Below, one piece after another: positions 3-19,263 of a stretch of DNA of 64,000 nt. Origin of the DNA: an uncultured Mycoplasmatota bacterium. GTDB taxonomy: Bacteria; Bacillota_I; Bacilli_A; RF39; UBA660. The DNA is taken from NCBI GenBank assembly GCA_947649365.1, contig CANSRH010000006.1, positions 1 through 64,000 of the forward strand. Reading direction: 5' to 3'. The notes under the pieces were generated by a model that was not told the DNA's origin, made no database searches, and saw only the letters and a program-made list of their open reading frames with translations. Position numbers and translations under genes: made by a program. Every line of letters starts with the position of its first letter. Position 1 is the stretch's first letter.

Positions 3-30
3 ATTATAACCCCCCCCCGAATGTTGTCAA
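3..30 (-). promoter_or_regulatory. Consensus promoter with G9 tract in the spacer (candidate phase-variable promoter)
   Basis: On the minus strand a perfect -35 (TTGACA, 25-30) and a perfect -10 (TATAAT, 3-8) are separated by 16 nt, nine of which are consecutive G (C on plus, 10-18). It reads left, out of the window, downstream of the metG terminator, so it should drive the next minus-strand gene. A homopolymeric G tract between promoter boxes is a known layout for on/off switching by slipped-strand mispairing. The boxes are seen directly; switching is inferred. Confidence 0.75.
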
Positions 31-76
31 CAAAAATTAAACGTTATCATAATGTTAGTCAATAGATAAGCAAAAA

Positions 77-104
77 AATAATAACTTTTAAAAAAGTCAT
101 TATT
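77..104 (-). terminator. metG terminator
   Basis: Inverted repeat of 13-nt arms (77-89 and 92-104, one G-U type mismatch) just past the metG stop. On the minus strand it is followed by a T-rich run, as in a rho-independent terminator. It separates metG from the promoter at the window edge. Confidence 0.7.
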
Positions 105-157: not shown

Positions 158-1678
158 TTATTTTTCAGCATCAATTCTTTGAAATAAGATTTCTGGTTCA
201 TTCAAATCGTATACAGCATCTTCATTAAATTGAAATTCTTGATTCGTAGAATGAATTTGTTTCAATATCTTTTCACTTGTTTCTGGTAAAAAAGGACTTA
301 AAAACACTGCACATATACGAATACTTTCAATCAAATTATAAAGAACTGTTTCTAATCTTTCTTTTTTACTTTCTTCTTTTGCTAAACTCCATGGTGTAGT
401 CTCATCAATGTATTTATTACTACGACGCAACACATCAAAAATTTCATCCAATGCCCCACCAATTTCCAAACGATTCATGCGAGCATCTACTTTTTCTTCC
501 AATCCATTCACCATAGAAAGAAGTTCACCATCAACTTCTTCTATCACCTTTTTATTTTCTAAGTGACTTGCAAAATACTTCTTGGCCATCGCAATAGTTC
601 GGTTCACCAAATTCCCTAAAATATTTACTAAATCCCCATTCGTCCTTTCAATAAGGAGTTCTTTTGTAAACACACCATCAGAAGCAAAAGGAATTTCATG
701 CAAAACATAATAACGAACTTCATCCACGCCATACTCATGAACTAAATCATCTGCATAAACAACATTTCCTTTGGACTTACTCATTTTACCATCACTCATA
801 ATTAACCAAGGATGTCCAAAAACTTGTTTTGGCAAAGGCAAATCCAAACTCATCAAAAAACAAGGCCAATAAATCGTATGAAAACGAATAATATCTTTTC
901 CAATCAAATGCAAATCCGCAGGCCACCATTTCAAAAACTCTTCCTTACATCCATCTGTGTCATAACCGATATTGGTTATATAATTTGTTAAAGCATCTAG
1001 CCATACATACACCACATGTTTTGGATTTTCTAAAACAGGAATTCCCCAATCAAACGAAGTTCTAGAGACACACAAATCTTGTAATCCTGGTTTCAAAAAA
1101 TTATGAATCATTTCATTTTTTCGAGACTCAGGTTGTATAAACTCCGGATGAGTTTCAATATATTCTATCAATTGATTTTGATACTTACTTAATTTAAAAA
1201 AGTAAGCTTCTTCCGTTTTTAGTTCCACAACTCTCCCACAATCAGGACAATTTCCATCAACAAGTTGTGACTCCGTCCAGAAAGACTCACATGGCGTACA
1301 ATAAAGACCTTTGTATTCTCCTAAATAAATATCTCCTTTATTTAACATTTTCGTAAATATTTTCTGCACAATTTCTTCATGATGCGTATCCGTTGTTCTA
1401 ACAAACTTATCATAACTTGTATTCATAACATCCCAGATAGTTTTTATTTCACTCGCAACACCATCAACATATTCTTTTGGAGTCACTCCTGCTTCTTTTG
1501 CCTTCAACTCAATTTTTTCTCCATGTTCATCCGTACCCGTTTGAAAATAAACATCAAATCCTTTTAATCTCTTATAACGAGCAATTGCATCCGCTAAAAC
1601 AATCTCATAAGTATTTCCAATATGAGGTTTTCCTGACGTATAAGCAATTGCTGTTGTAATATAATATTTTTCTTTCAT
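158..1678 (-). CDS. metG: Methionine--tRNA ligase
   Basis: Cytoplasmic class I aminoacyl-tRNA synthetase that charges tRNA-Met for initiation and elongation. The 506-residue protein has the HIGH-type signature HIGN at residues 19-22, a zinc knuckle of two CxxC pairs around residues 127-148, and KMSKS near residues 299-303. It ends after the anticodon-binding helical domain and lacks the C-terminal tRNA-binding domain found in many longer homologues. It starts 17 nt after the stop of the SDR gene and probably shares that gene's T-box leader, whose specifier looks like AUG; this fits feedback control by uncharged tRNA-Met. A terminator follows. Confidence 0.97.
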   Translation of the reverse strand: MKEKYYITTAIAYTSGKPHIGNTYEIVLADAIARYKRLKGFDVYFQTGTDEHGEKIELKAKEAGVTPKEYVDGVASEIKTIWDVMNTSYDKFVRTTDTHHEEIVQKIFTKMLNKGDIYLGEYKGLYCTPCESFWTESQLVDGNCPDCGRVVELKTEEAYFFKLSKYQNQLIEYIETHPEFIQPESRKNEMIHNFLKPGLQDLCVSRTSFDWGIPVLENPKHVVYVWLDALTNYITNIGYDTDGCKEEFLKWWPADLHLIGKDIIRFHTIYWPCFLMSLDLPLPKQVFGHPWLIMSDGKMSKSKGNVVYADDLVHEYGVDEVRYYVLHEIPFASDGVFTKELLIERTNGDLVNILGNLVNRTIAMAKKYFASHLENKKVIEEVDGELLSMVNGLEEKVDARMNRLEIGGALDEIFDVLRRSNKYIDETTPWSLAKEESKKERLETVLYNLIESIRICAVFLSPFLPETSEKILKQIHSTNQEFQFNEDAVYDLNEPEILFQRIDAEK

Positions 1679-2446: not shown

Positions 2447-2648
2447 CAAAAAAAATCATAAATTAAGGGCGAGCAACAATACCCGCGGTACCACCTTAAT
2501 TCATGACTTTTATCATGCACTTAAATTCGTAACGAGAATGAACCGATTTAACTCCAGAACCATGTTCTTAATTTTTCCTTTATTTGCTCCCACCAACACA
2601 AACTCTCTTTAAAATTCCAAATCAATACTCTTTCCTTCTTCATTAATT
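2447..2648 (-). promoter_or_regulatory. T-box riboswitch leader (probable Met specifier)
   Basis: The minus strand shows the T-box core AAGGTGGTACCGCG (about 2484-2497). It is followed by a terminator hairpin with 13-bp arms (2456-2468 and 2494-2506) and a U run (2447-2455). Upstream are stem I features: AGAGAG, a GGTG-type loop and a GGAGT element. The likely specifier is AUG (2561-2563, in the context GAACATGG). Uncharged tRNA would favour the antiterminator and allow transcription of SDR-metG. T-box identity is very secure; the Met specificity is read from position and from the metG context. Confidence 0.92.
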
Positions 2649-2654
2649 ACCAGT

Positions 2655-18781: not shown

Positions 18782-18798
18782 CAAAAGAAAAAGGATTA

Positions 18799-19263
18799 TT
18801 ATTTATGAAGAGTATCATCAAATTGTTTTCGACTCCGTAGAACAGATTCTAAACGAATAGAACGTAATATTTGATTATCAATCACACCATAAGAAACATT
18901 CAAAGCAATCTTATCCCCATTAAGAAATTCAACAATCAATCTCCCATTTTGATAATAATAACGATCCACCATACTAGAACGTAACCAAGAGCAAGTACTA
19001 GACTTAGGAGAAGCAGTAGGAAAAAAGATAATATCCTTCGTTTCCTCAACAATTACAGGAGCTTTATAAAGAGCTCCAATCAAATTTTCTGTTCCCTTTC
19101 GTCTTCCGGATAAAGAACTCCCAAAATAAGCACAACTCTCTTCCATAATCGCATTAGCAGGTTGATCCACTATAAAATTCTTATCTTCTTCATACACTCT
19201 TGTTTTATCATTCATAGCATAAAGAGCCATTGTTTTATTATTAATCTCATACTTTCTCATCAT
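18799..19263 (-). CDS. comK: ComK-family competence transcription factor
   Basis: 154-residue protein with the ComK family pattern. Residues 45-56 read CAYFGSSLSGRRKGT; next comes APVIVEETKDIIFFPTASP, then a Cys-Ser-Trp segment. Near 121-136 is ALNVSYGVIDNQILRS, which matches the family's conserved PISY.(S/F)..NQ..R motif. Bacillus ComK activates DNA-uptake genes. The C-terminus is about 35 residues shorter than in B. subtilis, where that part mediates degradation control. The start is one of two adjacent ATGs after GGGGGTG. It has its own terminator and lies between dnaN and recF, an unusual place. Assignment is by motif recognition only. Confidence 0.8.
   Translation of the reverse strand: MMRKYEINNKTMALYAMNDKTRVYEEDKNFIVDQPANAIMEESCAYFGSSLSGRRKGTENLIGALYKAPVIVEETKDIIFFPTASPKSSTCSWLRSSMVDRYYYQNGRLIVEFLNGDKIALNVSYGVIDNQILRSIRLESVLRSRKQFDDTLHK

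Follow-up and report, generated by a model that had tools for sequence, protein, structure and literature searches.

Most known cases of phase variation through G tracts come from Gram-negative pathogens. At the Bordetella fim promoters, which work without a consensus -35 box, the distance from the -10 box to an activator site is set by a C tract; the vlp promoters of mycoplasmas carry a poly-A tract. In Neisseria meningitidis, porA, opc and fetA have a homopolymeric tract between the -35 and -10 boxes (PMC2791445, PMC3899988). In Bordetella pertussis, the C tract upstream of the fim -10 box alters transcription (Willems 1990, as cited in PMC3899988), and phase-variable surface-protein loci have been described for Ca. 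M. girerdii (PMC5476646).

The promoter described here lies at the very start of the window, by which we mean the whole 64,000-nt stretch of DNA analyzed (G000:C6:1-64000). Since the window begins contig C6 of a 1.47 Mb genome in 43 contigs, the sequence ends just past the -10 box. Positions 1-30 of the plus strand are ttattataacccccccccgaatgttgtcaa, and the minus strand from 30 to 3 reads TTGACA-ACATTC-GGGGGGGGG-T-TATAAT (Table 1). The first-pass annotation had described perfect boxes with a 16-nt spacing on the minus strand and nine spacer bases in a single G run, which is exact on re-reading. The two boxes score 12/12, and the tract, which is wholly between them, is intergenic, unlike tracts in 5' coding regions elsewhere in the same genome. 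Translational (in-frame) phase variation was considered for this tract and rejected, because it is outside any 5' coding region. Judged from the sequence, the best reading, and one that we hold with considerable confidence, is a slipped-strand, phase-variable promoter of the sigma-70 type that would be controlled through its spacer tract. Between metG and the promoter, the minus strand of 60-125 folds into a hairpin (-17.1 kcal/mol, z = -5.8), which was not called by a GC-based terminator scan; together with its T run, it probably ends the metG transcript before the promoter. Farther upstream, a T-box leader (RF00230, 108.9 bits, window 2462-2649 minus) precedes a short-chain dehydrogenase gene and metG.

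Table 1. Features of the window promoter and its upstream neighbor, and the tract-bearing paralogues of the same genome.
Feature	Location	Strand	Basis or context
-35 box TTGACA, perfect consensus	25..30	minus	sequence
G9 tract, proposed slippage site, 9/16 spacer bases	10..18	minus	sequence; G10/G9 at orthologous promoters of G002/G003
-10 box TATAAT, perfect consensus; contig end 2 nt beyond	3..8	minus	sequence
AT-rich hairpin and T run, probable metG terminator, just upstream of promoter	72..104	minus	fold
metG, methionyl-tRNA synthetase, synteny anchor	158..1678	minus, reading towards promoter	upstream neighbor
13 tract-bearing paralogues	L049, L050, L052, L054, L056-L058, L061, L064-L067, L042		own genome

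At the 30% GC of the window, 0.33 matches to perfect TTGACA-N14-19-TATAAT are expected, so that the perfect boxes alone are unremarkable, and it is their combination with the tract that stands out. Runs of at least eight G or C number 36 in the genome, versus about 1.6 expected from a dinucleotide Markov estimate; two of the 36 are read-end artefacts. Eight of the 29 perfect-box promoters in the whole genome carry a G8-G11 tract in the spacer (contigs C3, C6, C11, C18 (two), C20, C21 and C23), and three further tracts (C1, C4 and C17) accompany a -10-like box where one of the boxes is weaker or the spacing is odd. A reversed control pattern had no matches in 22 congeners, where there are 36 real sites, and none in 395 class genomes or in 145 family genomes; the tract-promoter design itself was found in 16 of the 145 sampled genomes of the family. 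The G-tract promoter architecture is thus not a product of chance. The weak -35 boxes at two of the tract promoters (TTGCTA on C4 and TTGATT on C17) would suit a tract that varies but switches through some other spacing, for example to an upstream activator site as in Bordetella fim. We consider this very unlikely, as the perfect TTGACA at eight promoters and the box score of the window site mean that an activator is not needed.

The alignment of the C9 end to the first bases of the window covers the entire promoter and contains 17 substitutions, of which 12 are to G (read strand); past this promoter copy, C9 reads TATAATACCAACATTC...ATG. Because this error pattern is the one expected of reads deteriorating behind a C/G run, we join C6 to C9. 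The same kind of overlap occurs at C11-C23 and C23-C37, and contigs break at promoter tracts three times, versus 0.06 expected. These breaks resemble those at the phase-variable tracts of meningococci, 22 of 31 of which were at contig ends (PMC4235727); short-read assemblies tend to break exactly at such sites. Given the position at the very end of C6 and the substitutions in the C9 copy, the existence of the tract is more certain than its assembled length of nine. The contig-end location, the error-laden, G-biased overlap, and the 48 G in which contig C37 terminates could all be marks of a sequencing or assembly artefact, namely two-color Illumina poly-G error at a contig end. However, the tract occupies the same place between the boxes in assemblies of other species, many tracts are found well inside contigs with unique sequence on either side, and at this site a clean -10 box stands beyond the tract, with the continuation recovered in C9. 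We find an artefact barely credible.

The controlled gene lies outside the window, at G000:C9:64617-65537 minus (L157:6615-7538 minus), 112 nt from the C9 end and starting about 39 nt past the -10 box. It was located by searching the genome with the protein of the congener gene, and was linked to the window through the overlapping promoter copy. With C6 and C9 joined, the order is metG - promoter - DUF3419 gene - tatD - 179-aa gene - ksgA, where the names tatD and ksgA were assigned from sequence and tatD starts about 35 nt after the DUF3419 gene. The order from metG through the G-tract promoter and the DUF3419 gene to tatD is kept in the congeners G002 and G003. In G002, the promoter (TTGACA-AAGTAC-G10-T-TATAAT) is 97 nt after metG and is followed by a 310-aa gene and tatD, and in G003 the same gene stands behind TTGACA-GAAGGTC-G9-T-TATAAT, with three additional ORFs between metG and the promoter. 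The leader TATAATACCAA is common to the DUF3419-gene promoters of all three genomes. The orthologous promoters differ in tract or spacer length, as the first-pass reading would have it: G9 with 16 nt here, G10 with 17 nt in G002, and G9 with 17 nt in G003. Other shared loci differ too (for example on C18, G10 and G8 versus G9 and G9 in G001). Counting against a switch, the apparently close genomes G384 and G312 have equal tract lengths at the few loci compared, and in G001 and G017 the DUF3419 gene adjoins metG without a tract.

The 307-aa product matches Pfam DUF3419 at residues 52-145 (35.9 bits, versus a cut-off of 28.2), and the match spans a GSGD...FDIN region of the sort seen in SAM-binding folds. 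NodS or other methyltransferase models also hit some of the orthologues, with scores below cut-off. DUF3419 includes BtaA, a SAM-dependent aminocarboxypropyl transferase of betaine-lipid synthesis. The protein is probably a SAM-dependent enzyme, and we infer for it a role in modifying small molecules or lipids. Its sequence has no export-like N-terminus, a search for a solved homologue found none, and PADLOC gave no match, so that a defence role for the gene was dropped. The first-pass annotation had foreseen a minus-strand gene downstream, which is there, and had expected it to be of a surface or defence type, whereas the gene encodes this DUF3419-type enzyme.

Repeated promoters also bear on tract length. 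Among relatives, promoter copies with letter-identical flanks within one genome differ in tract length alone in 10 of 14 groups (the pairs being 8/9, 9/10 or 10/11), and so the length changes faster than the adjacent bases. The first-pass idea of a slippage-prone run between the core boxes is supported, and tract length is what changes fastest among otherwise identical copies. Viral contigs contributed six scattered matches, with no length series from the same phage. The differences between identical copies argue against a constitutive promoter whose G run serves as a fixed structural spacer or protein-binding element, as does the general difficulty of holding runs of eight or more G at constant length, which is established for poly-G/C tracts in other bacteria. 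Such a fixed element would be in keeping with the concentration of genus tracts at 9-10 G (31 of 36) and with the C that usually precedes the run, and the 19-nt spacer preferred by relatives could be the one length that suits stiff poly-G DNA best. The spacers, however, are far broader in length than at ordinary promoters, and we judge a fixed spacer to be unlikely.

That breadth is seen in 129 tract promoters across GTDB, which have spacers of 13-23 nt (23 at 16 nt, 10 at 17 nt and 22 at 18 nt), compared with 14 of 24 at 17 nt for tract-free perfect promoters in the same stretches, i.e., the DNA around the tracts (Fisher p = 8e-8 for 10/129 versus 14/24). Fixed promoters should sit at the optimum and switching ones need not, and thus the broad spacers count in favor of a switch. 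The GTDB-wide set shows an apparent dip at exactly 17 nt that the genus and class sets do not reproduce, and the claim is accordingly limited to a broad, off-center distribution. The commonest spacer of tract promoters in the clade is 19 nt, and the lack of symmetry around 17 nt counts against the switch reading; G499 has 21 G-tract promoter sites dispersed through a 1.4 Mb genome, almost all of them near-identical and almost all with this spacer. The textbook optimum for ordinary DNA is 17 nt, and poly-G DNA may shift it. The G10 form of the window promoter, with a 17-nt spacer, is a candidate for the ON state beside the 19-nt preference of the clade; the choice of 17 nt is unproven because tract promoters mostly have 19 nt and because of this possible shift. 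The spacer statistics thereby raise a testable question, which is the ON spacing when nine spacer bases are G.

For the phase-variable promoter that we favor, slipped-strand mispairing at replication would add or remove G in the tract, and the distance between the -35 and -10 boxes would then move one base at a time from its present 16 nt, for which weaker or intermediate activity is predicted. Altered spacing would raise or lower RNA polymerase binding and hence transcription. A clonal population would then contain cells with differing levels of the DUF3419 enzyme, and perhaps of the tatD cluster too.

The genes found behind tract promoters are often of a kind different from the one at the window. 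Across GTDB, 80 of 109 first genes (73%) are export-like by a simple hydrophobicity rule, versus 99 of 514 neighbors (19%; p = 4e-27), an excess that is expected of phase-variable loci. In G397 (L312, G397:C6), surface or secreted proteins with PKTxDN-type, sortase-like sorting ends form a tandem array, and each gene stands behind its own G8-G9 promoter. The genome of the window also has 13 paralogous membrane-protein genes, each with a G9-G11 tract about 14 codons in, their starts being MKKEKKILPTSRIR- or similar; of the eight assessable copies, seven are frameshifted OFF and one (C10, G9) is ON. Like the promoter tracts, of which there are at least eight, these belong to the repertoire of the 1.47 Mb genome. 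Two repeat copies with G7/C7 arms in L044 (C25:7757-7781 and 18783-18807) are unrelated to the promoter tracts.

Other tracts of the same genome lie in or before further genes. Two long sigma-70-type genes (875 and about 1078 aa, each extended by a large C-terminal addition) have internal tracts, G10 at G000:C9:60843 (L060) and G9 at G000:C31:4535 (L045), and an out-of-frame copy, the one on C31, suggests phase-variable sigma factors. The thymidylate synthase gene has G10 at its promoter and an in-frame internal G10 (G000:C17:24646 and 24860; L066:2047 and 2261), and the guanylate kinase gene is broken at a G9 tract (G000:C17:29371; L066:6772), where one additional base would leave a 201-aa frame open. 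The tract promoter at the C23 end (L047) precedes, on the same strand, genes for a Spo0A-C-domain protein and a 251-aa protein and a mutS-like gene; phase-variable mutS was considered here and dropped, as mutS is directly preceded by a promoter-like TATAAT of its own. On C20 and C21, nearly identical promoter-leader modules stand before unrelated genes, a sign that the module itself gets copied. A tentative extension, to which we give somewhat less than even weight, is that in this lineage of uncultured gut bacteria G-tract promoter modules have been copied and dispersed over unrelated genes as a large random-switching repertoire that reaches beyond surface proteins into core physiology, its targets including the SAM-dependent DUF3419 enzyme, a Spo0A-like regulator, sigma-70-type factors, an ABC transporter and thymidylate synthase. 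If this is true, whole expression programs, beyond antigens, would vary among sister cells. From the recurrence of the design in this genome and in others of the family, random surface switching would seem to be common among commensal gut Bacilli and Clostridia.

Compared with the known systems, the promoter design is already familiar, and the main interest lies in the size of the repertoire and in the lineage, for which our partial coverage of the literature found no report combining RF39 with phase variation and none on G-tract promoters. The Mycoplasma loci are similar in that their surface genes are under the control of slippage-prone repeats, the hosts being small-genome relatives within the same broad lineage; the loci differ in having mostly dinucleotide or poly-A repeats, rather than the G tracts and sigma-70 consensus boxes found here. 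In some genomes of the class metG contains several in-frame TGA codons, and promoter sites of some class genomes match records called Acholeplasmatales and Anaeroplasmataceae; on this basis the class is taken to be GTDB Bacilli. The first-pass annotation named both Bordetella fim and Neisseria opc/porA as analogues. The former is inexact, since its tract lies between the -10 box and an activator site and the window promoter has a perfect TTGACA at 16 nt; the latter holds for the core-box spacer tract. Like porA, opc and fetA, the window promoter has a G/C tract between the core boxes, where slippage is proposed to shift the spacing one base at a time, and it is one of a set of presumably variable tracts spread over the genome, some of them in coding regions. 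It differs in that both boxes are perfect consensus, that the host is an uncultured, AT-rich bacterium whose GTDB class also holds mollicute-type genomes, and that the gene encodes a cytosolic-looking enzyme, surface antigens being usual in the Neisseria systems but not obligatory. On the core features tested, all of them read from sequence, the window promoter is grouped with the porA/opc/fetA type.
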